Assembly (NCBI RefSeq): GCF_001657485.1
Contig: NZ_LXFU01000031.1
Location: 65,485-129,484, forward strand
DNA: 64,000 bases
Direction of reading: 5' to 3'
Origin: Rhizobium sp. WYCCWR10014
GTDB taxonomy: Bacteria > Pseudomonadota > Alphaproteobacteria > Rhizobiales > Rhizobiaceae
This document shows positions 13,834 to 41,315 of the stretch, one piece after another (the stretch's first letter is position 1; every line of letters starts with the position of its first letter). The translations under genes were made by a program, and so were the position numbers. A model generated the notes under the pieces. That model was not told the DNA's origin. It ran no database searches and worked only from the letters and a program-made list of their open reading frames with translations.

Positions 13834-13884
13834 GTCTAGATCAGAGAGGGCTTCCGCGACGGCAACGTTCGGGGGCCTTTTCTT
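13834..13884 (+). ncRNA. Counter-transcribed RNA (ctRNA/incA) between repB and repC
   Basis: A roughly 50-nt antisense RNA is predicted from the promoter above to an intrinsic terminator: GGCTTCCG (13849-13856) pairs, with two G-U pairs, to CGGGGGCC (13870-13877), then TTTTCTTTT. Location, orientation and size match the ctRNA of repABC plasmids, which blocks RepC production and determines incompatibility. Ends are estimated. Confidence 0.75.
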
Positions 13885-13886
13885 TT
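13849..13886 (+). terminator. Intrinsic terminator of the ctRNA
   Basis: An 8-bp stem with a 13-base loop, and a T-rich tail at 13878-13885. On the opposite strand the same sequence forms the repB-repC leader hairpin that is the antisense target. Confidence 0.7.
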
Positions 13887-13888
13887 GC

Positions 13889-30397: not shown

Positions 30398-32203
30398 TCA
30401 GCTCGCCAGCTTGGCGCTGATATAGTTGCGCCAGCCGCCAAGAGCGGTGATTTCCTCGGCACCTTTCACGGCATGGGCTTCGCAGACGAAGCCGGAGACG
30501 CTGGAACCGTCTTCGAGCGTCAGCTTACCGATGCCGAGGGGTGCCGGAATCTTCTGGACGAACCTGCCGAAAGAATCGGCCGGCAGTGCCCAGACCTCGA
30601 CCTCCAGCCCCTGACCCTTATGGCCGGGTTCGCGCAGCAGTCCCGGTTTGGCCGGCGTGGTATTGGGCAGAACGAAGAGGCGATAGTCGCCGGCCGTGCA
30701 GCAGGTCTTGACCAACCGTCCGCCCGTGCCTGCCAATTCGTGATTGAGCGGCATGCCGGTCAGATGCGCACCGACGACCGCGATTTCGATGAAACCGTCA
30801 TCGCCAGGCACAACACGGCTTGCTTCGGGAATCGCAGCCTGCCGGTCGATGCCCATGCCGGAGCTTGCTGCGCGGTGCAGCGCATCGGCAAGCGGCGCCA
30901 GCGCATCGTCGGTGAAGGCAGGTGCAATGACGGTCACGCCGCCCGGCAGCCCACCTTTTCCGAATCCCGCCGGAACGGCGATCGCCGCGCAATCGAGCAG
31001 GTTGACGAAATTGGTGTAGCGGCCGAGGCGGCCGTTGAGCACGACGGGATTGGCCTGCATGTCGGCGACCGTGTAGGTGGTCGGCGCCGTCGGCAGCAGC
31101 AGCACGTCGGCCTTTTCCCATTCGGCCTCGGTCTTGCGGCGCAGTTCCTCCAGCCGGTAGCGGCCGTTGAAGGCCTCGACCGCGGTCTTGCCCTTGGCGC
31201 CTTCGATGATCCCTCTGACCGTCGGATCGAAATCGGCGGCGTTGGTGGCGAGGAAGGTCTCCACCGCCGCCAGACGTTCGGCAACCCACGGCCCGTCATA
31301 GAGAAGGGCGGCAGCCTCGCGGAATGGCGTGTAATCGAAGGGCACGATGGTCGCCCCGAGCGCTTTTGCCCGCTCGATCGCCTGATCGTAGAGCGCCTCC
31401 ACCTCCTTGTCCCCGAAGAATTCCCGTTCGGCGTCGGCGAGGACGCCGATGCGCAAGCCCGATACCGGCAGCTTCGCCGGCACGGCGCGACGCGAGAAAG
31501 GATCGGCGGCATCGAAGCCTTCGGCGACCTTGCGGATCGCAACACCGTCAGAGACGGTCGCGGCGAAGATCGTGATGCAGTCGACGCTCTTGCAGGCCGG
31601 AACCGCGCCGGTATTCGGCAAGAGACCCGGCGTCGGTTTGATGCCGACCAGATTGTTGAAGGCAGCCGGCACCCGGCCGGAGCCTGCCGTATCCGTGCCG
31701 AGCGCAAAGGCAGCAAGGCCGGAGGCCACAGTGACCGCCGATCCGGAACTCGAACCGCCTGAGATATAGGCCGCATCGAAGACCGAACGCGGCGCGCCAT
31801 AGGGCGAGCGCGTGCCGTTGAGGCCGGTCGCGAACTGGTCGAGATTGGTCTTGCCGATGACGATGGCGCCGGCCGCCTTCAACCGGGCAACGACGGTGGA
31901 GTCCGCCTCCGGCCGATATTCATAGGCCGGGCAGGCGGCCGTTGTCGGCAGGCCGGCGGCATCGATATTGTCTTTCACGGCAAAGGGAACGCCCCAAAGC
32001 GGCAGGCTGTTTGCCTCAGGCGCGCGTGCCATCAAAGCTTTGGCGGCAGCGCGCAGCTCCTCATCCGGCACCGGGGTGATGAAGATTGCCGGATCCTTCG
32101 AGGCGGCACGCCGCGCGATCACCTCTTCGATGGCGTCGAGCGGCGTCAGGCCGGATTGATAGGCGGCGCGAAGGCTTGAGAGATCCAGGATGGTCGGCAG
32201 CAT
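30398..32203 (-). CDS. atzF: Allophanate hydrolase
   Basis: A 601-residue amidase-signature enzyme hydrolysing allophanate to ammonia and CO2, the last step of urea- or guanidine-derived nitrogen release. The amidase domain (about residues 1-440) has the catalytic Lys in 'GVPFAVKDNIDAAGLPTT' and the Ser triad in 'AAYISGGSSSGSAVTVASGLAAFALGTDTAGSGRVPAAFNNLVGIKPT'. The C-terminal domain (about 480-601) is of AtzF_C type. I chose the ATG at 32203, with GGAGGAA upstream inside the end of the carboxylase gene; the stop and start are one base apart, so the two are translationally coupled. Last gene of the operon. Confidence 0.95.
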   Translation of the reverse strand: MLPTILDLSSLRAAYQSGLTPLDAIEEVIARRAASKDPAIFITPVPDEELRAAAKALMARAPEANSLPLWGVPFAVKDNIDAAGLPTTAACPAYEYRPEADSTVVARLKAAGAIVIGKTNLDQFATGLNGTRSPYGAPRSVFDAAYISGGSSSGSAVTVASGLAAFALGTDTAGSGRVPAAFNNLVGIKPTPGLLPNTGAVPACKSVDCITIFAATVSDGVAIRKVAEGFDAADPFSRRAVPAKLPVSGLRIGVLADAEREFFGDKEVEALYDQAIERAKALGATIVPFDYTPFREAAALLYDGPWVAERLAAVETFLATNAADFDPTVRGIIEGAKGKTAVEAFNGRYRLEELRRKTEAEWEKADVLLLPTAPTTYTVADMQANPVVLNGRLGRYTNFVNLLDCAAIAVPAGFGKGGLPGGVTVIAPAFTDDALAPLADALHRAASSGMGIDRQAAIPEASRVVPGDDGFIEIAVVGAHLTGMPLNHELAGTGGRLVKTCCTAGDYRLFVLPNTTPAKPGLLREPGHKGQGLEVEVWALPADSFGRFVQKIPAPLGIGKLTLEDGSSVSGFVCEAHAVKGAEEITALGGWRNYISAKLAS

Positions 32204-32204
32204 G

Positions 32205-35200
32205 TCAGCATTCCTCCAGAACGACGATGATATCGCCGGCTTTGACGTTTCTTCCCGGCCCGGCGCGCAGATCGCGGACGCGGCCTGGCGCATGGGCGGT
32301 GACGTTGATTTCCATTTTCATCGATTCGATGATGGCGAGTGTATCGCCGGCCGCAACCGGGGCGCCCGGCTCGACCATCAATTTCCAGATATTGCCGGGC
32401 ACGGCGCTGGCAACACCGAAGCAGCCGTCGGGGATATCCCCATCCAGACTTTCGCCCGTGCCTTCATCGGTGACGAAGCTGTCGAGCCCGGCCTCCTTCC
32501 AGCGCTGGCGCTCAGTATCGAAGGCCGCCTGCTGCGTTGCCTTGAAGCGGCCGATCGACGCCGAATTCGCCTGCAATTCCTTCTCATAGGCGGCATAGGA
32601 GAATTCCGTCTCCTCGATCCTGATTGGATAACCGCCATGCGGGAAGGCGGCGCGCGCCTCCGTCAGCTCCTGATTGCTGACCGGGAAGAAACGGATTTGG
32701 TCGAAGAAGTTCAGCAGCCAGGGTTTGCCCCTGGCAAAGGCCGGTGTCTCCCGCCATGTGTTCCAGACCTGAATAGTACGGCCGAAGAGCTGATAGCCGC
32801 CCGGTCCTTCCATGCCGTAGATGCACATATAGGCGCCGCCGATGCCGACGGCATTTTCCGGCGTCCAGGTGCGGGCGGGATTATACTTCGTCGTCACGAG
32901 GCGGTGGCGCGGATCGGTCGGGGTCGCAACCGGCGCGCCAAGATAGACATCGCCGAGACCGAGCACCAGGTAGCTCGCATCAAAGACGATATTGCGGACG
33001 GCCTGTTCGTCGGGAAGACCGTTGATGCGGCGGATGAACTCGATATTCGACGGGCACCAGGGCGCATTCGGGCGCACGAGCTCCTGATATTTGCGCATCG
33101 CAAGCTCCGCATCCGGATCGTTCCAGGAAAGCGGCAGATGCACGATACGGCTCGGCACCGTGACCTCCTGGGCTGCCGGAAGCGTCGCCTCGATCTCGGA
33201 GAGCAGCCCGAGCAGGCGCCGGCGCGTCAGTTGCGTGCCGTCATAATGGATCTGCAGCGAGCGGATACCGGGGGTGAGGTCGATGACGCCGGGAAGGTGG
33301 GCCTCGATGACCGCCTGCATCAGCAGGTGCACCCGCAGCCGAAGTGCGATGTCGAGCGTCATCGGCCCATATTCGACGAGCAGGTTGTCGTCACCCTGGC
33401 GGCGATAGACGACGGAAACCGGGCCGTCATTGCTGATGCCGACGATCGGCGAACCGGTCTCTTCCGTGGGCCGCCGCACCACCGGGCCGGCGATCGGGTC
33501 TTCCGGCCGCACTACTGCATGAAAACGGATACGGTCGCCGGGCTTGAACTGGCCCATCTTCCACTGCTCGTCGCGGGCAATCACCGCCGGGCAGACGAAG
33601 CCGCCAAGGCTCGGGCCGTCAGGGCCGAGGATAATCGGCATGTCGCCGGTGAAATCGATCGCCCCGATCGCATAGGCATTGTCGTGCAGGTTGGATGGGT
33701 GCAGCCCCGCCTCGCCGCCATCGCGGCGCGCCCAAAGCGGGGCCGGGCCGATGAGGCGAACGCCGGTGCGGGCGCTGTTGAAATGCACCTCGTAAGCCGT
33801 CGAAAATAGCGTCTCGATATCACTATCCTCGAAGAAGTCAGGTGCACCGTGCGGGCCATAGACAACGCCGACATCCCACTCACGTGTCAATGTGGCGGGC
33901 TCCGTCGCAGGCGTTGCCGGTTCGGCCGCCGCCTGCCGGGCAAAATGCAGCACATGCCCTGTCTTCAGCGTGCCAGTGGCGTTACCGCCGAACTGGCCGA
34001 GGCCGAAGGTCGCCCGCGAGCCGAGCACGACGGGGGCGGAAAAACCGCCCGCGACGGCGAGATAGGCGCGTTGCCCCGGTCCTTCGATTGCGCCAATCGA
34101 CAGCACCTGACCAGCCCGGATCGTTACCGGTTCGTCATGCAGCAATTTTGTGCCATCGCATGTCATCGGCATCCGCGCGCCGGCAAGCGCGATCGTCTGG
34201 TCGGCATAAAACCGCAATGTCGGACCGGAAACGGTCAACTCCAGCGCAGCCGTCACATCGTCATTGCCGACCAGCCGGTTGGCATGGCGGAAGGAGCGCT
34301 CGTCCATCGGCCCGCTCGGCGGTACTCCGACATGCCAGAGGCCGAGCCGGCCCGGCAGTTCCTGGATGCTCGACTGGGCGCCTGGCGCCAGAACCTCAAC
34401 GACATCGGGAACGAAGGCGAAGTCGCGTAGAGCCGTCGTTGCCACCTTGGCGCTGGCCAGCAATTCGGAAGCGGCGATCGTCCTGAGGTAAGCGAGATTG
34501 GTCTCGATGCCCGATATCGACGTTTCGGCGAGTGCTGCCTTCAGTTTCTCGATCGCCGCCGGCCGGTCTTCCGCCGCAACGATCAGCTTGGCAAGCATCG
34601 GGTCGTAGAAGGGCGTCACCTCGGTTCCCGTCTCGATCCAGCCGTCGACGCGCGCACTTTCCGGAAAAATGACTTCGGTCAAAAGGCCGGCACTCGGGCG
34701 AAAGTCGGCATGCGGCATCTCGGCATAGATCCGCATCTCGATCGCCGCACCCTTCGGCGTCAGGGCGTCAGCACCCGAGAGCACGTCCTCGCCAGCCGCC
34801 TGCCGGATCATCCATTCGACGAGATCGATGCCAAAGACGGCTTCCGTGACGGGATGCTCGACCTGAAGGCGGGTGTTGACCTCGAGGAAATAGAATTCCT
34901 GGCGCTGAGGATCGTAGATGAATTCGACGGTGCCGGCCGATTCATAGGAGACCGAGCGTCCCAGATCGACCGCCGCCTTGTGCAGCTGCGCTCTAGTTTC
35001 GGCGGAGAGGCCGGGGGCAGGAGTCTCCTCGACGACCTTCTGGTTTCGCCGCTGCAGCGAGCAGTCGCGTTCGCCGAGCGCAATCACGCCGCCCTTGCCG
35101 TCGCCGAAGATCTGTACCTCGACATGGCGCGCTTCGGCAACGAAACGCTCGATGTAGACGCGCGCATCGCCGAAGCTGGCGCGGGCGGTCCGCTGCACGC

Positions 35201-35744
35201 TTTCGAAGGAGGCCTTGAGGCTTGTGGCGTCGGCGCAGAGCTGCATGCCGATTCCGCCGCCGCCGGCCGTGCTCTTCAGCATGACGGGATAACCGATGGT
35301 TTCGGCGGCCGAAAGCGCCTCGTCGACGCTCTGCAAGAGATCGGTGCCGGGCAGTAGCGGCACGCCGCTCGCTTTCGCCAATTCGCGCGCCGTGTGCTTC
35401 AGGCCGAAGGCCGACAGATGCTCCGGCCGTGGGCCGATGAAGGCGATGCCTTCGGCGGCGAGCCGCTCGGCAAAGCCGATATTCTCCGAGAGAAAGCCGT
35501 AGCCCGGGTGGACGGCTTCAGCGCCCGTCGCCTTGCAGGCGGCAATGACGGCGTCGACGTCAAGATAACTTTCGGCAGCAGGCGCCGGGCCGAGGCGGAC
35601 GGCCTCGTCAGCGGTCAGCGCCGGCTTCGCGAACCGATCGGCATCGGAATAGACGGCAACGGAGGCAATGCCCATCCTCTTCAATGTGCGGATGACGCGG
35701 ACGGCGATTTCGCCGCGATTGGCGATAAGGACCTTGGTGAACAT
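32205..35744 (-). CDS. Urea/guanidine carboxylase (biotin-dependent), probably guanidine carboxylase
   Basis: A 1179-residue biotin carboxylase. Biotin carboxylase domain at about 1-450 ('KVLIANRGEIAVRVIRTLKRMG', 'KSTAGGGGIGMQLCADATSL', 'EFYFLEVNTRLQVEHPVTEAVFGIDLVEWMI'). Carboxyltransferase halves follow: an AHS2/KipA-like part from about 460 ('LGLWHVGVPPSGPMDERSFRHANRLVGNDD') and an AHS1/KipI-like part from about 770 ('ISNDGPVSVVYRRQGDDNLLVEYGPMTLDIALRLRVHLLM'). A C-terminal biotinyl domain has the biotin lysine in 'IIESMKMEINV' (about residue 1143). It carboxylates urea or guanidine using ATP and bicarbonate. The riboswitch and DUF1989 partners favour guanidine; I did not resolve the specificity residue. 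Confidence 0.93.
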   Translation of the reverse strand: MFTKVLIANRGEIAVRVIRTLKRMGIASVAVYSDADRFAKPALTADEAVRLGPAPAAESYLDVDAVIAACKATGAEAVHPGYGFLSENIGFAERLAAEGIAFIGPRPEHLSAFGLKHTARELAKASGVPLLPGTDLLQSVDEALSAAETIGYPVMLKSTAGGGGIGMQLCADATSLKASFESVQRTARASFGDARVYIERFVAEARHVEVQIFGDGKGGVIALGERDCSLQRRNQKVVEETPAPGLSAETRAQLHKAAVDLGRSVSYESAGTVEFIYDPQRQEFYFLEVNTRLQVEHPVTEAVFGIDLVEWMIRQAAGEDVLSGADALTPKGAAIEMRIYAEMPHADFRPSAGLLTEVIFPESARVDGWIETGTEVTPFYDPMLAKLIVAAEDRPAAIEKLKAALAETSISGIETNLAYLRTIAASELLASAKVATTALRDFAFVPDVVEVLAPGAQSSIQELPGRLGLWHVGVPPSGPMDERSFRHANRLVGNDDVTAALELTVSGPTLRFYADQTIALAGARMPMTCDGTKLLHDEPVTIRAGQVLSIGAIEGPGQRAYLAVAGGFSAPVVLGSRATFGLGQFGGNATGTLKTGHVLHFARQAAAEPATPATEPATLTREWDVGVVYGPHGAPDFFEDSDIETLFSTAYEVHFNSARTGVRLIGPAPLWARRDGGEAGLHPSNLHDNAYAIGAIDFTGDMPIILGPDGPSLGGFVCPAVIARDEQWKMGQFKPGDRIRFHAVVRPEDPIAGPVVRRPTEETGSPIVGISNDGPVSVVYRRQGDDNLLVEYGPMTLDIALRLRVHLLMQAVIEAHLPGVIDLTPGIRSLQIHYDGTQLTRRRLLGLLSEIEATLPAAQEVTVPSRIVHLPLSWNDPDAELAMRKYQELVRPNAPWCPSNIEFIRRINGLPDEQAVRNIVFDASYLVLGLGDVYLGAPVATPTDPRHRLVTTKYNPARTWTPENAVGIGGAYMCIYGMEGPGGYQLFGRTIQVWNTWRETPAFARGKPWLLNFFDQIRFFPVSNQELTEARAAFPHGGYPIRIEETEFSYAAYEKELQANSASIGRFKATQQAAFDTERQRWKEAGLDSFVTDEGTGESLDGDIPDGCFGVASAVPGNIWKLMVEPGAPVAAGDTLAIIESMKMEINVTAHAPGRVRDLRAGPGRNVKAGDIIVVLEEC

Positions 35745-35747
35745 CGA

Positions 35748-36401
35748 TCAGTCCTCGCCGTCCCAGATCAGCACCCGGATCGGCGTCGGATCAAAGCCGT
35801 TGCAGGGATTGTTTATCTGCGGGCAGTTGGAGATGACGCAGAGCACGTCCATCTCCGCCACCAGTTCGACGTAGTCGCCGGGCGCGGAGATGCCGTCGAC
35901 GATCGTCATCTCGCCGTTCGGCTTGATCGGCACATTCATGAAGAAATTGATGTTCGGCACGATGTCGCGCTTGCTCATGCCGTGTTTGGTCACCTCGATC
36001 ACGAAATTGTCGCGGCAGGCATGCAGGTATTTGGTGCCGTGGCCAAAGCGCACCGTGTTGCTCTCGCAGGAGCAGGCGCCGGCTGATGCATCGTGGCGGC
36101 CGCAGCTATCGGCCGTCATGACAAGCATGACGTTGCCTTCGTTCGAGATGATCTTCGTGCCGGTGCCGATATAGGCGCCACCCTGCGCCCGCATCGTATC
36201 CTGGTTGGAATAACGCTCGCCAAAATCATCGGCGCGATAAAACAGCGTGTCGATTGCCTGCTGGCCGTAGCTGTCCTCGATGCGGATCGTCTGGCCCTTG
36301 CGGACGATGCCGGACCATGGCGCTTCGGCCGGGATGAAGTGATCCTGCACGGCGTTTTCGAAGCCGCGCGAAGCTGAAGTCTTGATGAAATCGGTCATCA
36401 C
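35748..36401 (-). CDS. DUF1989 'urea carboxylase-associated' protein, small subunit of a probable carboxyguanidine deiminase
   Basis: A 217-residue DUF1989 protein. Typical blocks are 'PAEAPWSGIVRKGQTIRIEDSYGQQAIDTLFYRADDFGERYSNQDTMRAQGGAYIGTGTKIISNEGNVMLVMTADSCGRHD' and 'KRDIVPNINFFMNVPIKPNGEMTIVDGISAPGDYVELVAEMDVLCVISNCPQ'. A cluster of cysteines and a histidine ('DSCGRHDASAGACSCES') could bind zinc. The two DUF1989 proteins next to these carboxylases have been reported to form a heteromeric carboxyguanidine deiminase (CgdA/CgdB) that yields allophanate and ammonia. I do not assign which subunit is A or B. The stop lies three bases from the carboxylase start. Confidence 0.88.
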   Translation of the reverse strand: MMTDFIKTSASRGFENAVQDHFIPAEAPWSGIVRKGQTIRIEDSYGQQAIDTLFYRADDFGERYSNQDTMRAQGGAYIGTGTKIISNEGNVMLVMTADSCGRHDASAGACSCESNTVRFGHGTKYLHACRDNFVIEVTKHGMSKRDIVPNINFFMNVPIKPNGEMTIVDGISAPGDYVELVAEMDVLCVISNCPQINNPCNGFDPTPIRVLIWDGED

Positions 36402-36410
36402 AATCCCTCC

Positions 36411-37232
36411 TCAGGCCAGCATCGCGGCGTTGTTCTCGAAGCCGCGAAGGGCTTCGGCGGTCGCCGTGCGCGAGAGGTCGTCGGCTGCGGGCGCGGCTGC
36501 TCGAAAGCGGGTGACGATGACAGGCTTCGGCGTATAAACAGGGTCGGGATCGAGCGGATGCGGGCAATTGGAGAAGCCGACGATCATGTCCATCTCGGCG
36601 CGCAGCTCGGCATAGTCGCCGCTGTTGGAAAGCTTGCCACGCCAATGGAAGCCGCCCTCATCATCGACGCGGACGGGGGCGAAGAGATTGAGAATCCCAG
36701 GGATGTCGCGCCTGGTGAGACCGAGCTTGCCGGCGACGAGCACGAGATTGTCGCGGGTGTTGCGGGTCTTGACGCCGGGATATTTCCCGGCATTCGAAGC
36801 TGCCGTCGAGCCACCCATCAGGCAGTCATGCGCGCCGGAACTGTCCTCGATCAGCGAAAACATCACCCGGCCCATATCCGAGAAGATTACGCGTCCTTTG
36901 CCGAGGGCGGTCGTCCACTGCACCTTGACCGTATCGACGAGATTGAGCCGCTCACTGGTGTCAGCGGCACTCCAGGCGACGAGCGCGACCGTCGACCCGC
37001 CTTCGCCCTGATCGATACGGAGCGCCTCGCCGCGCTTCAGCGCGGTCGACCAGTACCAGCCGCCGGGGATGGTTTCCTGATGGATGATCGCAGCCGCATC
37101 GATTGCGGGGGCGGGAAGGGGGCTCGGCGCCGGCAAGGCCTTCGGCGCAAATTCCAGCCCCTTCTTCTGATGTTCCTCATAACGCTGCCGGTTGGCGGCG
37201 ATTTCCTCGGGCGAACGTCTGATATGCATCAT
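36411..37232 (-). CDS. DUF1989 'urea carboxylase-associated' protein, large subunit of a probable carboxyguanidine deiminase
   Basis: A 273-residue DUF1989 protein, paralogous to its downstream neighbour. Recognisable parts are 'RRSPEEIAANRQRYEEHQKKGLEFAPKALP' (family N-terminus), 'IPGGWYWSTALKRGEALRIDQGEGGSTVALVAWSAADTSERLNLVDTVKVQWTTALGKGRVIFSDMGRVMFSLIEDSSGAHDCLMGGS' and 'LTRRDIPGILNLFAPVRVDDEGGFHW'. The potential zinc ligands H and C are in 'GAHDCLMGG'. Its start codon overlaps the ATPase stop (ATGA), so translation is coupled to the transporter. The role in guanidine breakdown is inferred from published work on the family and from the riboswitch. Confidence 0.88.
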   Translation of the reverse strand: MMHIRRSPEEIAANRQRYEEHQKKGLEFAPKALPAPSPLPAPAIDAAAIIHQETIPGGWYWSTALKRGEALRIDQGEGGSTVALVAWSAADTSERLNLVDTVKVQWTTALGKGRVIFSDMGRVMFSLIEDSSGAHDCLMGGSTAASNAGKYPGVKTRNTRDNLVLVAGKLGLTRRDIPGILNLFAPVRVDDEGGFHWRGKLSNSGDYAELRAEMDMIVGFSNCPHPLDPDPVYTPKPVIVTRFRAAAPAADDLSRTATAEALRGFENNAAMLA

Positions 37233-38059
37233 GGTTTTTCTCCTGACGGACTGGAAGCCGGGTCGTCCCGGCGAAGGCCCAGAGAAATGACCGGGCCGTC
37301 CCGGTCGGGGCTGAAGACGGAGGGCGCGCCGGCAAGCCTGGGCGGCCAGATCGAAATATCCTTGGTGATCGTCGCGCCGTAGCGCTCCTTTTCCTCCGGG
37401 CGATCACGCTTGCGCTCGAAGGCGACGACCCGCGTCGCCAGCGTGAAGGCCTCGCGCATGTCGTGCGTCACCATGACGACGGTCATCTGCGTTTCGTGCC
37501 AGAGGCGCTTCATCAATGTGTGGATTTCGGCGCGGATGCCGGGGTCGAGCGCGCCGAAGGGCTCATCGAGCAGCAGCACCTTCGGCTTCATGATCAGCGC
37601 CTGCGCCAGTGCCAGGCGCTGCTGCATGCCACCGGAAAGCTGCGCCGGATATTTGTCCTCGGCGCCGGAAAGGCCGACTTCGCCGATCAGCCGCCGTGCC
37701 TCGTCGACGGCGCTGCGGCGGGCAGCGCCAAAAAGCTTGGCCTTGTAGCGGGACGCCGAGAGTTCGCGCCCGAGCAGCACGTTTCCGAGGACCGTCAGAT
37801 GCGGGAAGACGGAGTAGCGCTGGAAGACGACGCCGCGATCCGGGCCTGGCTCCTGCGGCAGCGCTTCGCCGTCGAGCAGGATCGTGCCCCGCGTCGGCCG
37901 CTCCTGGCCGAGCAGCATGCGCAGGAACGTCGACTTGCCACAGCCGGACGGTCCGACAAGGGCGACGAAGGCGCGCGAAGCGACGGTCAGCGATACGTCC
38001 TCAAGCACGATCTGGTCGCCATACTCCTTCCAGACCTTTTCGATCACCAGTTCGCTCAT
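37229..38059 (-). CDS. ABC importer ATPase of the guanidine operon
   Basis: A 276-residue ATPase of the nitrate/sulfonate/taurine (SsuB/TauB) class. Walker A is '[22 protein letters not shown]', the Q-loop 'GVVFQRYSVFPHLTVLGNVLLGREL', the signature 'LSGGMQQRLALAQALIMKPKVLLLDEPFGALDPGIRAEIH', and the H-loop 'VMVTHDMREAFTLATRVVAFERKRDRPEEKERYGATITKDISIWPP'. The tail after the nucleotide-binding core is typical of carboxylase-linked transporters. It overlaps the permease stop by four bases (ATGA). It energises import of guanidine or a guanidino compound. Confidence 0.92.
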   Translation of the reverse strand: MSELVIEKVWKEYGDQIVLEDVSLTVASRAFVALVGPSGCGKSTFLRMLLGQERPTRGTILLDGEALPQEPGPDRGVVFQRYSVFPHLTVLGNVLLGRELSASRYKAKLFGAARRSAVDEARRLIGEVGLSGAEDKYPAQLSGGMQQRLALAQALIMKPKVLLLDEPFGALDPGIRAEIHTLMKRLWHETQMTVVMVTHDMREAFTLATRVVAFERKRDRPEEKERYGATITKDISIWPPRLAGAPSVFSPDRDGPVISLGLRRDDPASSPSGEKP

Positions 38060-38874
38060 GCCTGCTTCTCCAGCTCCGACCAGGGGAAGACGGCGATGCG
38101 GATGCGATCGAGGATATAATTCATGATCACGGCGAGCAGCGTGATCCAGACGACATAGGGAAAGATGACGTCCATCGAGAGATAGCGGCGGACGAGGAAA
38201 ATGCGGTAGCCGAGACCGGAATCCGACGAAATCGCCTCGGCCGCGATCAGGAACAGCCAGGCGGGACCGAGCTGGAGCCTCAGGCAGGTGATCAGCCGCG
38301 GCAGGACCTGCGGCAGCACGACCCGAAGCCCGATCTGCCAGGAAGAGCCGCCGAGCGTCTCAGCCTTGACGATCTGTTCACGCGGCAGCTCCAGTGCCTT
38401 CAGCGCAAGGTCGCGGATCATCGTCGGCGCTACGCCGATGACGATGAGCGCGATCTTCGAGGCTTCGCCAAGCCCCATGGCGATGAAGAGGATCGGCAGC
38501 AGCGCCAGCGGCGGCACCATCGAGATGACGGCGACGAAGGGCGAGAGCAGGGCTCGCAGATATGGCAGCATGCCGATCAGCATGCCGATGACGAGCGCCG
38601 TGATCGTCGAGATGCCAAGGCCGGCAAACAGCCGGACCAGGCTCGCGCCGGTATCGGACCAGAGCAGATATTGGCCGGTGCGCGGATCGGCGATGAAGGC
38701 CAGGCGGTCGATCGCATCGGCAAAACCGGCAAGACCGGGCAACAGCTTGTCGTTGGCATTTTCCGCCAGCCGCGCCGCCGAGCCGAACGTGTAGGCAACG
38801 ATCAGCAGCACGAAGGGCAGCAGCGTCAAGGCAAGCTGCGCGCCCCGGCTCGGTCTGGTGTTGATCCAGCGCAT
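38056..38874 (-). CDS. ABC importer permease of the guanidine operon
   Basis: A 272-residue BPD_transp_1 permease with about six membrane helices and the EAA loop 'LALKALELPREQIVKAETLGGSSWQIGLRVVLPQVLPRLITCLRLQLGPAWLFLIAAEAI', which contacts the ATPase. It is close to SsuC/TauC. A periplasmic stretch between the first two helices contains 'ADPRTGQYLLWSDTGASLVRLFAGLG'. It is followed without a gap by the ATPase gene and preceded by a hairpin in the gap after the binding-protein gene, consistent with stepped-down expression. Confidence 0.92.
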   Translation of the reverse strand: MRWINTRPSRGAQLALTLLPFVLLIVAYTFGSAARLAENANDKLLPGLAGFADAIDRLAFIADPRTGQYLLWSDTGASLVRLFAGLGISTITALVIGMLIGMLPYLRALLSPFVAVISMVPPLALLPILFIAMGLGEASKIALIVIGVAPTMIRDLALKALELPREQIVKAETLGGSSWQIGLRVVLPQVLPRLITCLRLQLGPAWLFLIAAEAISSDSGLGYRIFLVRRYLSMDVIFPYVVWITLLAVIMNYILDRIRIAVFPWSELEKQA

Positions 38875-38902
38875 GAGGAAAGCTCCACTGATGAAGGTCG
38901 GA

Positions 38903-38924
38903 CGGCGCGGTCAAAGCCGCGCCG
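38903..38924 (-). other. Intercistronic hairpin after the binding-protein gene
   Basis: CGGCGCGG (38903-38910) and CCGCGCCG (38917-38924) form a perfect 8-bp stem with a 6-base loop in the 65-bp gap between the binding protein and the permease. No T-tract, so an mRNA-stability or attenuation element is more likely than a full terminator. Confidence 0.6.
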
Positions 38925-38939
38925 CTGCTTTGAGATCGC

Positions 38940-40013
38940 TCAGAGCGAACCGTCGGCGGCTGCCTTCATGTAGGTCTCGGTGAAGCGCAGCTTGACGTTG
39001 CCGCTGTCGCCGAGGATCTTGCCGTCCGGCATTTCGATGCCGATGACATCGGCGGAGGGCGCGCCATTGCCGAGCAGGCCCTTCTCGAACAGGAAGTTGC
39101 GGACAAGATCCATTGTCTTCGGCAGGCTGCCCGAGGCAGTGAAGGCAACGGCATCGGCCGGCTTGGCAAACAGCTTGGTGGCGGCAAGCTGGGATTCGAA
39201 GCCCTTGAGATCGGTGCCCGATGCCTGGCCCATCGCCTCGCGGGCGGCCTTGCCGTCGGCACTGTCGGCAGTCAGCAGTGCTGCGGTTTCATACCAGATG
39301 CCGGCGAGCGCCTTGCCGAAATTCGGGTTGTCCTTCAGCACGCCTGAATTGGCGACCATCAGGTCGATGATCTCGCCCGGCACCTGCGAGCTATCGAAGA
39401 CCTTCTTGGCCGTGGGATCCTCGAGGATGGTCGAGACCAGCGGATTCCAGGTGACGACCGCGGTCACGTCTGCCGTCTTGTAGGCGGCGACCATATCGGC
39501 ATCGGAGGTGTTGACCACTTTCACATCGCGCTCGGTCAGCTTGATGCTCTCGAGCGCGCGGGCCAGCAGATAATGCGAGACGGAAAATTCGACGAGATTG
39601 ACGTTCTGTCCCTTGATGTCGGCAAGGCTCGCCTTGTCCTTGAGGATGACGGCATCATTGCCGTTCGAGAAGTCGCCGACAATTACGGCCGTGGTATCGA
39701 CGCCGCCGGCAGCCGGGATCGACAGGCCGTCCATGTTGGTCAGCGTCACGGCGTCGAAGGCGCCTGCGGTATACTGGTTCATCGATTCGACGTAGTCGTT
39801 GAACTGGGTGACCTCGATCTTGATGCCGTATTTGTCGGCCCATTTCTTGACGATGCCGTGATCAGCAGCATAACCCCAGGGCATCCAGCCGACGTAAATC
39901 GACCAGGCGACCTTGAAGTCAGTCTTCTGTTCGGCCTTGGCGATGGAGCCGAGTCCCAGCACCAGGGACGCCGTCAGTGCGGTAATCGATAGAATCTTCG
40001 AAAAAGTCTGCAT
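38940..40013 (-). CDS. Periplasmic substrate-binding protein of the guanidine operon
   Basis: A 357-residue SsuA/TauA/NMT1-like binding protein. The signal peptide runs to 'GLGSIAKA' (about residue 26); the mature protein begins 'EQKTDFKVAWSIYVGWMPWGYAADHGIVKKWADKYGIKIEVTQFNDYVESMNQYTAGAFDAVTLTNMDGLSIPAAGG'. The family usually binds small anions, but this subgroup travels with urea/guanidine carboxylases. It is the first gene after the riboswitch. The ATG at 40013 has AAAGGGG upstream; that ribosome site sits inside an inverted repeat with the terminator arm. The ligand (guanidine or a derivative) is inferred. Confidence 0.92.
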   Translation of the reverse strand: MQTFSKILSITALTASLVLGLGSIAKAEQKTDFKVAWSIYVGWMPWGYAADHGIVKKWADKYGIKIEVTQFNDYVESMNQYTAGAFDAVTLTNMDGLSIPAAGGVDTTAVIVGDFSNGNDAVILKDKASLADIKGQNVNLVEFSVSHYLLARALESIKLTERDVKVVNTSDADMVAAYKTADVTAVVTWNPLVSTILEDPTAKKVFDSSQVPGEIIDLMVANSGVLKDNPNFGKALAGIWYETAALLTADSADGKAAREAMGQASGTDLKGFESQLAATKLFAKPADAVAFTASGSLPKTMDLVRNFLFEKGLLGNGAPSADVIGIEMPDGKILGDSGNVKLRFTETYMKAAADGSL

Positions 40014-40021
40014 TGAAATTC

Positions 40022-40045
40022 CCCTTTTGCTTTTCTTCAAAAGGG
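40022..40045 (-). promoter_or_regulatory. Inverted repeat that can mask the ribosome site of the binding-protein gene
   Basis: CCCTTTTG (40022-40029) and CAAAAGGG (40038-40045) are perfectly complementary. On the transcribed strand the distal arm is the Shine-Dalgarno region (AAAGGGGAA) and the proximal arm is shared with the 3' side of the terminator stem at 40039-40076, so the two structures exclude each other. Confidence 0.6.
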
Positions 40046-40076
40046 ATCGGCAATGACCATCGTGCCGCCAATCCCT
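40039..40076 (-). terminator. Riboswitch expression-platform terminator
   Basis: On the minus strand AAGGGATTGGC pairs with GCCGATCCCTT (one G-U), leaving a loop of about 16 bases, and is followed by TTTT. It begins about 9 bases after the riboswitch core, as expected for transcription control by guanidine. Confidence 0.75.
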
Positions 40077-40084
40077 TGGCTTAC

Positions 40085-40195
40085 GAGGTCTCCCGGGCTT
40101 TTGTCCCGCCGTGCACCCGGCGGGATGTCTCCCCTGCCGGTGGTAGCTCTCGGACCAGCCACGCCCTGCGACGCCGGAACCCTAGCCACCAACTC
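40085..40195 (-). ncRNA. Guanidine-I riboswitch (ykkC class)
   Basis: Read on the minus strand, the leader contains in order CTAGGGTTCCG (from about 40185), CTGGTCCGAGAG (about 40160-40149) and GCACGGCGGGACAAAAGCCC followed by GGGAGA (about 40114 to 40089). These are the diagnostic conserved blocks of the guanidine-I aptamer. GGTGGCT at the 5' end can pair with AGCTACC after the CGAGAG block to close P1. It is followed by a terminator hairpin and then the ABC importer/carboxylase operon, the usual gene context of this class in Proteobacteria. Binding of free guanidine should prevent termination. Confidence 0.95.
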
Positions 40196-40207
40196 TGCAA
40201 CTATCGA

Positions 40208-40223
40208 AGCAAAGTGCGTGCCA
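40208..40223 (-). promoter_or_regulatory. Sigma-54 (RpoN) promoter of the guanidine operon
   Basis: On the minus strand TTGGCACG-CACT-TTGCT: GG and GC dinucleotides with exactly 10 bases between them, matching YTGGCACGRNNNTTGCW at all but one degenerate position. The -24 core TGGCAC is at 40223-40218 and the -12 core TTGCT at 40212-40208. The predicted start, about 40197, is at the 5' edge of the riboswitch. Confidence 0.88.
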
Positions 40224-40295
40224 AATTATAAATCATTGATTTTATTGAGGGTGCGATGGCACCAATTTCCTGGAAAATGCAATAGTGCATGCACT

Positions 40296-40312
40296 TGCAC
40301 AGAAAATGTGCG
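40296..40312. promoter_or_regulatory. NtrC-like enhancer site
   Basis: TGCACAGAAAATGTGCG is a 17-bp dyad with the TGCAC-N7-GTGC spacing of NtrC sites, centred about 107 bases upstream of the predicted sigma-54 start. A second palindrome, GTGCATGCAC, lies at 40285-40294. Known NtrC enhancers sit at such distances. Inference only. Confidence 0.55.
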
Positions 40313-40397
40313 TATTCTGCCGCCACCTTAGGCGTTGGTTCTTTTTTGCCCAGTTTAAAAAAAGCAGCAGGCAGAGCACGCAGACGCCGAATTGCGG

Positions 40398-41315
40398 CTA
40401 GTTCCGAAAGGTCCCGGGCGGGATCGTCGTTACCAGCCGGATATCGCGGCGGAAATTCGACGGTGACATGCCGGCGATGTGGCGGAAGGATTTGTTGAAG
40501 GCGCTGATCGAGCCGAAGCCGCTGTCCATCGCCACCTGCAGCACGTTGGCGCCCTCGCTCATCAGCATCGCCTGGGCGCGCGACAGCCGCAGCAGCGTCA
40601 CGTATTTGCTGAGCGTCATGCCGGTCGATCGCTTGAACAGGTTCATCGCATATTTCGGATGCAGGTCGGCAGCGCGGGCGATATCGACCGAATCGATGTC
40701 GTGCAGGAAATTGGCGGCGATGAAATCGCACATGCGCGCGACGCTGCGTGAGGAATGCGGATGCGGGTGATCGCCCTCGAGATTGATGGTCGCCTGCGAC
40801 GTCATGGAATAGGGTTCGAGCGCGATGCGCTCGATGCGTAGCAGCAGCTCGTCGACGGCGTGCTGGGCCTTGGCGGGATCGCCGGAATTGGCATAGCGGA
40901 ACCAGCGGGTAAAGTTCTCGTTGTCTGCAGCATCCGTTGCCGAGGTCAGCAGCGTCTCGCCCTTCATCAGCCGGCTGGAAACGCTGATCGGCAGGCGCAA
41001 CCGGAAGAAATAGACGAGCGGCAGATGGGCGCCGGCATAGAGCGAATCGTCTGAGGATTCGTCCATCTGATGCGGCTGACCACCCCAGAACAGGCACATT
41101 TCCCCGGCGTTCAGCCGGAATTCGTGATCGCTCATCCGGTAGTGCACGGTGCCGCGCATCACATAGTTGACCTCGACCTGCGCGTGCCAGTGCGGCATGG
41201 CCATGACAGGCGGATGGGCATGAAACATCTGCAGCGCCGTTGGCAATCCCTCGATGCTGCTCGCGCCGGGTTGGTAGATTGCACGTGTGCCGACCTTACT
41301 TTCCGCCAAATTCAT
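40398..41315 (-). CDS. AraC family transcriptional regulator
   Basis: A 305-residue regulator. The N-terminal cupin-like sensing domain has 'MPHWHAQVEVNYVMRGTVHYRMSDHEFRLNAGEMCLFWGGQPHQM' (about residues 40-85). The C-terminal double helix-turn-helix covers about 195-300 ('MCDFIAANFLHDIDSVDIARAADLHPKYAMNLFKRSTGMTLSKYVTLLRLSRAQAMLMSEGANVLQVAMDSGFGSISAFNKSFRHIAGMSPSNFRRD'). It resembles MelR-type sugar regulators. It is divergent, with an 86-bp gap, from the CUT1 sugar importer operon, which it probably activates. It is transcribed toward the guanidine operon but ends before that operon's promoter region. Confidence 0.92.
   Translation of the reverse strand: MNLAESKVGTRAIYQPGASSIEGLPTALQMFHAHPPVMAMPHWHAQVEVNYVMRGTVHYRMSDHEFRLNAGEMCLFWGGQPHQMDESSDDSLYAGAHLPLVYFFRLRLPISVSSRLMKGETLLTSATDAADNENFTRWFRYANSGDPAKAQHAVDELLLRIERIALEPYSMTSQATINLEGDHPHPHSSRSVARMCDFIAANFLHDIDSVDIARAADLHPKYAMNLFKRSTGMTLSKYVTLLRLSRAQAMLMSEGANVLQVAMDSGFGSISAFNKSFRHIAGMSPSNFRRDIRLVTTIPPGTFRN

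Follow-up and report, generated by a model that had tools for sequence, protein, structure and literature searches.

A guanidine-II aptamer inside the ATPase gene of a Rhizobium guanidine operon headed by a guanidine-I aptamer

We found a Rhizobium operon for guanidine use that probably has three layers of control, namely a sigma-54 promoter, a guanidine-I (class-I) riboswitch and a guanidine-II (class-II, mini-ykkC) riboswitch. The less ordinary part is the class-II switch: it lies in coding sequence, and the operon around it begins with a sigma-54 box and class I. Earlier reports already describe the guanidine-carboxylase pathway and its class-I switch (PMC11410670, PMC12186494, PMC12508155). 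The class-I finding corrects gene labels. The occurrence of class II within a gene matters more: a conserved metabolite sensor lies inside a full-length protein gene, with signs of RNA selection at synonymous sites, and the overlap is a natural test of how translation and riboswitch folding share nucleotides.

Genes and substrate of the operon

In the window, by which we mean the whole 64-kb stretch of DNA that was analysed, the minus strand is matched at 40196-40088 by the full-length RF00442 (Guanidine-I) model (81.0 bits, gathering threshold 63, E-value 7.4e-13, model positions 1-107; cmscan of the whole window). A preliminary description had placed a guanidine-I riboswitch at 40085-40195, which is right to within 3 bases. 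The three conserved blocks by which it had recognized the RNA, CTAGGGTTCCG, GGTCCGAGAGC and AAAAGCCCGGGAGA, do not vary across an alignment of 25 Rhizobiaceae leaders. One RF00442 match was reported in the 7.4-Mb genome, among the 150 of 220 first-look candidates that were scored.

The aptamer (40088-40196, minus strand) lies ahead of genes for guanidine transport and breakdown, in the order that had been claimed and all on the minus strand. An ABC substrate-binding protein, named "putative urea" (38940-40013; TIGR03427, 551.6 bits), is followed by an ABC permease (38056-38874; PF00528) and an ABC ATPase of 276 amino acids (37229-38059), whose TGA stop overlaps the ATG of the next gene. This next gene encodes UAAP1 (36411-37232; TIGR03425, 289.1 bits), and UAAP2 follows (35748-36401; TIGR03424, 332.6 bits). 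Both are DUF1989 proteins and, by family, putative carboxyguanidine deiminase subunits. The last two genes encode a carboxylase annotated as urea carboxylase (32205-35744; TIGR02712, 1805.5 bits) and allophanate hydrolase (30398-32293; TIGR02713, 789.3 bits; these are the bounds of the listed open reading frame, and the real start is possibly further in). Among solved structures, we found only distant relatives of the DUF1989 proteins and the binding protein. UAAP2 matches structures of trimethylamine N-oxide demethylase, and its match to NF053776 is below the cut-off.

The preliminary description had also held that the ligand of the operon is guanidine, not urea. Guanidine carboxylase is told apart from urea carboxylase by aspartates at Kluyveromyces lactis positions 1330 and 1584 (PMC11410670). 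In the window, Asp697 and Asp932 of the carboxylase align with these positions (1584 was counted by eye), and the yeast protein has Asn at 1330 in the same alignment. Both aspartates are present in all 27 loci with a readable carboxylase, so we regard the enzyme as a guanidine carboxylase. The pathway of carboxylase, carboxyguanidine deiminase and allophanate hydrolase has been published (PMC11410670, PMC12186494, PMC12508155).

That the operon serves urea, and that its RNA is a ykkC relative with a different ligand, is very improbable. The database names do read urea. Against this stand the full-length RF00442 match, the class II in the same operon, the two DUF1989 genes and the presence of both aspartates in every one of the 27 readable carboxylases. 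We also rejected the idea of a ykkC-related RNA for a different ligand on the outcome of a permissive search of 37000-40400 (3.4 kb), in which RF00442 and RF01068 were the only Rfam families up to an E-value of 1. Guanidine rather than urea as the substrate of the operon is therefore well supported by comparison of sequences.

The sigma-54 box and the class-I leader

The preliminary description missed the sigma-54 promoter, the leader that masks the Shine-Dalgarno sequence and the class-II switch. The sigma-54 consensus at -24/-12 is TGGCAC-N5-TTGC. A box of this form, TGGCACGCACTTTGC, occurs at 40209-40223 on the minus strand, 12 nt ahead of the aligned leader, and it is the sole exact one in the 64-kb window, where 0.22 are expected. 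The predicted transcription start is at about 40197, which would place the class-I aptamer at the very 5' end of the transcript. An inverted repeat, GGTGC-CATC-GCACC (40250-40263, minus strand; found by eye), lies about 26 nt upstream of the box, and might be an activator site.

We assembled 60 Rhizobiaceae regions from 72 listed class-I places. The regions hold all 60 places over the cut-off (a single region has two of them) and a further place that scores 61.6 bits, and the 11 other places, which are below the cut-off, were left out. An exact box precedes 42 of 59 guanidine-I leaders in this set versus 0 of 1180 shuffled leaders. With at most one mismatch, the counts are 50 of 59 and 5 of 1180, and in all 50 cases the box is 11-17 nt ahead of the leader. 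The controls are mononucleotide shuffles, which keep base composition only, and one locus of the 60 (L112) was left out. We also surveyed the phylum (397 Pseudomonadota genomes with TIGR03425, 46 over the cut-off); the 43 survey loci are 42 of these 46, four of the window's genus being left out, plus one weaker locus. Of the 38 class-I aptamers in this survey, 32 are preceded by a box with two mismatches at most (a count with no shuffle control), and 31 of these 32 boxes are 39-76 nt ahead of the leader. Loci L170, L171 and L172 are among the six aptamers without a good box.

Sigma-54 control of such urea carboxylase-type genes is already in print. We take COG3665 to be the same as DUF1989. 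A survey of sigma-54 includes 102 COG3665 genes, of which 59% carry the name urea carboxylase (PMC12316311). NtrC dependence is reported for a "urea carboxylase" cluster of Burkholderia cenocepacia that is homologous by gene names (PMC5491218). A sigma-54 box joined to a guanidine aptamer was not found in the literature that we searched. Its position at the first base of the aptamer, in most Rhizobiaceae class-I leaders, would tie guanidine use to nitrogen shortage, and this tie opens a direct way to test what free guanidine does in the physiology of bacteria from soil and plants.

The 25 Rhizobiaceae leaders share a common design on the 3' side of the class-I aptamer. In the window, the predicted OFF helices consist of GACCUCGU:ACGA-GGUC around GCCAA:UUGGC (40055-40090, minus strand). 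GACC:GGUC and GCCAA:UUGGC are possible in every one of the 25 leaders. Their strands are nearly invariant and the covariation is accordingly weak. This pair of helices is mutually exclusive with the pairing of two further segments. Segment 1, AAGGGAUUGGCG (40066-40077, minus strand), is a predicted anti-sequestor and makes 12 bp with segment 2, UGCCGAUCCCUU (40041-40052, minus strand). Segment 2 is common to segment 1 and, at its end, to the Shine-Dalgarno strand. In the alignment of segment 1 with segment 2, 99.7% of cells are paired with one compensatory change, a result that 20 of 500 shuffles also attain. At the end of segment 2 lies the strand CCCUUUUG (40045-40038), which pairs with the Shine-Dalgarno strand of the substrate-binding-protein gene (40021-40029, minus strand), and this pairing comprises 7-10 bp in 25 of 25 leaders. 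The automatic alignment gave no covariation between segment 2 and the Shine-Dalgarno strand.

Computed minimum free energy (MFE) folds agree with a masked state. GACC is paired in all 25 leaders, as are 4 or 5 of the 5 Shine-Dalgarno bases, and across the 25 loci the folds favour masking by 6.9 kcal/mol (standard deviation 2.2) without ligand. The class-I RNA of Vreelandella binds guanidine with a KD of 44 uM (PMC12508155), which by our own arithmetic is about 6 kcal/mol, a scale that fits the preference of the leader.

These models favour the leader as a translational ON switch that acts by Shine-Dalgarno masking, rather than as a plain terminator. In a terminator switch, guanidine would block the pairing of segments 1 and 2, and the masking would be incidental. 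Termination is the usual class-I mode (PMC12186494), and the hairpin of segments 1 and 2 is followed by a run of 4-6 U in 19 of 23 leaders listed. In L083, L078, L081 and L082, however, the run is just 3 U and then C, while the Shine-Dalgarno pairing is kept. Moreover, segment 2 takes the P3 strand of the aptamer (CGGCA) in the OFF fold of the window, as it does in 17 of the 25 leader MFE folds only. Given that the P3 strand is bound to segment 2 in this fold, formation of the aptamer should favour the pairing of segments 1 and 2, not block it. We consider the terminator possible, though rather doubtful.

The class-II aptamer in the ATPase gene

The class-II aptamer occurs at 37257-37307 on the minus strand, inside the 3' end of the ATPase gene (RF01068 match at 37307-37258, 40.2 bits, gathering threshold 32). 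One RF01068 match was reported in the genome, among the 150 of 1268 first-look candidates that were scored. Thus, the single RF00442 match and the single RF01068 match both fall in the guanidine operon. The two hairpins, P1 (GACCGGG-ACGG-CCCGGTC, 37289-37306) and P2 (GCCGGG-ACGA-CCCGGC, 37257-37272), have perfect stems and ACGR loops; this riboswitch class is characterized by kissing loops that bind two guanidiniums. An outer helix around P1 (37277-37311) joins the flank GCCC (37311-37308) to GGGC in the linker (37280-37277). The aptamer lies about 2.8 kb downstream of class I. Its end is about 25 nt ahead of the ATG of UAAP1, the first of the DUF1989 (deiminase) genes, and close upstream of the Shine-Dalgarno sequence. 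The last 35 codons of the ATPase, after the residues WPPR, traverse the aptamer and end at the TGA that overlaps the next ATG. In R. leguminosarum WSM1325, the annotated ATPase gene has the same length and overlap.

The class-II aptamer is retained in most related operons. Among the 60 Rhizobiaceae regions, 27 have the ATPase followed by UAAP1, 32 are without UAAP1 and one has UAAP1 directly after class I. With a strict two-hairpin search, class II is found at the ATPase/UAAP1 junction in 24 of the 27 loci. The same search found it in none of the 32 regions without UAAP1 and not in the single region with UAAP1 directly after class I. Five of the 32 end at contig ends (L071, L074, L090, L118 and L120), and another two (L113 and L121) show no importer genes apart from a weak ATPase match. 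Rfam confirms class II in 8 of 8 positives that were re-scanned. As for the other three loci, class II is broken in L092 (remnant at L092:3440-3560), where class I and the operon are present, such that this is a natural loss. In L089 and L106, the corresponding tail of the ATPase gene retains ACGA hairpins that are weaker and score below the gathering threshold.

In 21 of the 24 class-II loci, the ATPase is coded through hairpin 1 or further: 12 have both hairpins inside the frame, and nine have hairpin 1 inside it and the stop codon at the base of hairpin 2. In the other three, the stop lies ahead of hairpin 1. (The state of L077, which has masked bases, was judged from its tail only, and this locus was left out of the tree.) The spacing of the ACG loops is 33 nt in 12 of 12 loci with both hairpins coded, and 31 or 34 nt in the nine loci with only hairpin 1 coded. 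A frame constraint on this spacing is suggestive only. As proof it fails, given that the coded loci are one clade of ten plus L096 in the tree, and that two coded-through loci outside the family have spacings of 32 (L172) and 34 (L135), a third (L171) having 33.

In the family's 30 best-scoring class-II loci, a mechanical open reading frame covers the motif in four, one of which (L010) is the guanidine operon. The covering frames of the other three (L013, L015 and L030) are candidate genes. In many of these 30 loci, the next downstream frame has 104-113 residues and resembles a small exporter by eye.

The class-II RNA shows signs of selection. P1 has a compensatory change from C-G to U-A in L095 and L101, where the second base of the change also turns a Val of the ATPase tail into Ile. 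For P1 and P2 together, the covariation score is reached by 0 of 500 shuffles and the share of cells paired by 1 of 500; the count of pairs changed on both sides is reached by 183 of 500. The outer helix of flank and linker has at least 4 bp in all 24 Rhizobiaceae loci, and its partners change together, giving GCCC:GGGC, GGCCU:AGGCC, GACC:GGUC and other variants. In ten loci the flank encodes Arg-Pro; the Arg codon is CGC, CGG or CGA, and the linker base opposite its last position is G, C or T accordingly. These changes leave the protein unchanged and represent at least two events by relatedness. Native outer-helix pairs beat swapped partners (0 of 5000 permutations reach the native value, relatedness being ignored), and only 5 of 24 loci have a helix that is better, at 0.05, than shuffles which keep its composition. 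We rejected the outer helix as a general class-II feature: at 27 phylum-survey places, it is scarcely more stable than shuffles (-3.1 kcal/mol versus -2.4).

In the window, the linker sequence UUUCUCU (37287-37281) is complementary to the UAAP1 Shine-Dalgarno sequence AGGAG (37240-37244, minus strand), and in the MFE fold of the window RNA it covers GGAGAAA there. Masking of this kind has been proposed for the guanidine-II class (PMC9561414). As a general anti-Shine-Dalgarno element, the linker is unproven, its pairing across loci being no better than chance (permutation p of 0.21, with 5 of 24 loci above shuffles at 0.05), and so is the 5' flank (permutation p 0.70). By analogy with its family, the switch would be ON with guanidine. 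The Vreelandella class-II RNA binds guanidine with a KD of 93 uM and fails to tell it from methylguanidine (PMC12508155). Therefore, guanidine as the only ligand of the Rhizobium class-II switch is not secured.

One might suppose that only class I matters, such that the class-II motif would be a relic kept unfolded by ribosomes, with UAAP1 made by termination-reinitiation. The overlap of the ATPase stop with the UAAP1 start in the window is consistent with this idea, and the TGA/ATG overlap could drive UAAP1 by re-initiation without the class-II switch. The loss of class II in 1 of 27 operons (L092), the weaker hairpins in two (L089 and L106) and the lack of general Shine-Dalgarno masking across loci (the permutation p of 0.21) also point this way. 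By contrast, class II is retained in 24 of the 27 operons, its stem covaries, and the partners in the outer helix change together, partly at synonymous codon sites. We therefore consider a relic unlikely and favour a class-II switch that functions.

Outside Alphaproteobacteria, the position of class II differs. According to Rfam, 24 of the 43 survey loci have class II between UAAP2 and the carboxylase gene, each with class I, and all of them are outside Alphaproteobacteria, the taxonomic class of the window. In 23 of 23 loci tested for overlap, this aptamer is outside the upstream gene, at least 13 bases past its stop. (The 23 are 22 of the 24 plus L168, which was found by the hairpin search alone; L136 and L146, found by Rfam only, were left out.) Five loci have class II ahead of UAAP1 (L135, L147, L169, L171 and L172), all in Alphaproteobacteria. 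These are the only class-II occurrences in the 11 surveyed loci from this taxonomic class outside the family, the loci without class II being L159, L160, L162, L165, L166 and L170. By Rfam, class II is absent from 14 of the 43 loci, which are these six and L132, L133, L137, L139, L140, L142, L168 and L173. A coded-through class II also occurs in three other families of Alphaproteobacteria (L135, L171 and L172), and in L147 the upstream stop is 10 nt ahead of the aptamer. The common layout in the survey agrees with that of Vreelandella and Enterobacteria, so the position ahead of the deiminase genes, inside the ATPase gene, is a variant. We did not find this position in the literature searched, and primary papers may already list it.

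Several loci differ in other ways. Two guanidine-I aptamers in a row, each ahead of its own binding-protein gene, occur in survey loci L134, L136, L138 and L141. In the Rhizobiaceae locus L089 there are also two in a row, the second ahead of a permease gene. A second type of Rhizobiaceae guanidine-I locus (L065, L067, L069, L071, L072, L074 and others) has importer genes with 52-68% identity but no UAAP1, and we found no class II there. Both riboswitch classes are missing from G297, a genome of the same genus as the window.

Proposed control and relation to known systems

We propose that the three layers would work as follows. Under nitrogen shortage, transcription would begin from the sigma-54 promoter, with the class-I aptamer at the 5' end of the RNA. 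Guanidine on this aptamer would stabilise the P3 helix, which would leave the strand UGCCGAUCCCUUUUG free to pair with segment 1 and unmask the Shine-Dalgarno sequence of the importer's first gene, so that the importer would be made. Further down, the class-II switch in the 3' end of the ATPase gene may control how far the two DUF1989 deiminase genes are translated and, by way of these genes, also the carboxylase and the hydrolase. Given that the ATPase frame passes through the class-II RNA, each ribosome that finishes the ATPase would have to unfold this RNA, which could report guanidine only between ribosome passages.

A further idea, which we put forward tentatively, is that in Alphaproteobacteria the class-II sensor has become coding sequence, the aptamer doubling as the protein tail of the ATPase. 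Ribosome traffic might then erase and re-arm the sensor, and the enzymes might be made only if guanidine is present at each refolding. Together with sigma-54 and class I, this would amount to a gate of nitrogen AND guanidine AND guanidine on one mRNA.

The operon resembles the guanidine carboxylase operon of Vreelandella boliviensis (PMC12508155). Both begin with class I, have class II further inside, and encode an ABC importer, the deiminase (cgdA/B in Vreelandella), a carboxylase and an allophanate hydrolase. In Vreelandella, both RNAs have been probed. Class II of Vreelandella is between cgdB and the carboxylase gene, whereas that of Rhizobium is inside the ATPase gene, ahead of the deiminase genes. 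Unlike in Vreelandella, the hydrolase gene in the Rhizobium window comes directly after the carboxylase gene, without mgdH/mgdL between them (PMC12508155). Enterobacterial operons (Raoultella, Erwinia and Klebsiella) similarly have class I ahead of importer and deiminase genes and class II further down, but there class II controls the carboxylase and hydrolase only (PMC12186494).

An open reading frame through or next to an aptamer, with an AUGA stop-start overlap and re-initiation, is reported for B12 riboswitches of Mycobacterium tuberculosis (PMC11260477). Those frames are short leader frames with an OFF switch, while the Rhizobium frame is a full-length operon gene with a predicted ON switch of another riboswitch class (PMC11260477). 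As in tandem riboswitches, two sensors of one ligand would share one mRNA (PMC9481103). However, the Rhizobium sensors are about 2.8 kb apart and belong to two classes, and that review reported none of the four guanidine classes in tandem (PMC9481103).

The surroundings of the operon include further elements. A gene for an AraC/MelR-type regulator lies directly upstream on the same strand (40398-41315, minus strand), and R. leguminosarum WSM1325 has a helix-turn-helix gene in the corresponding place. The operon sits on a Rhizobium plasmid. The same 64-kb window contains ctRNA_p42d at 13845-13888 (plus strand) and an S-element at 13804-13737 (minus strand), which we take to be marks of a repABC plasmid replication region.
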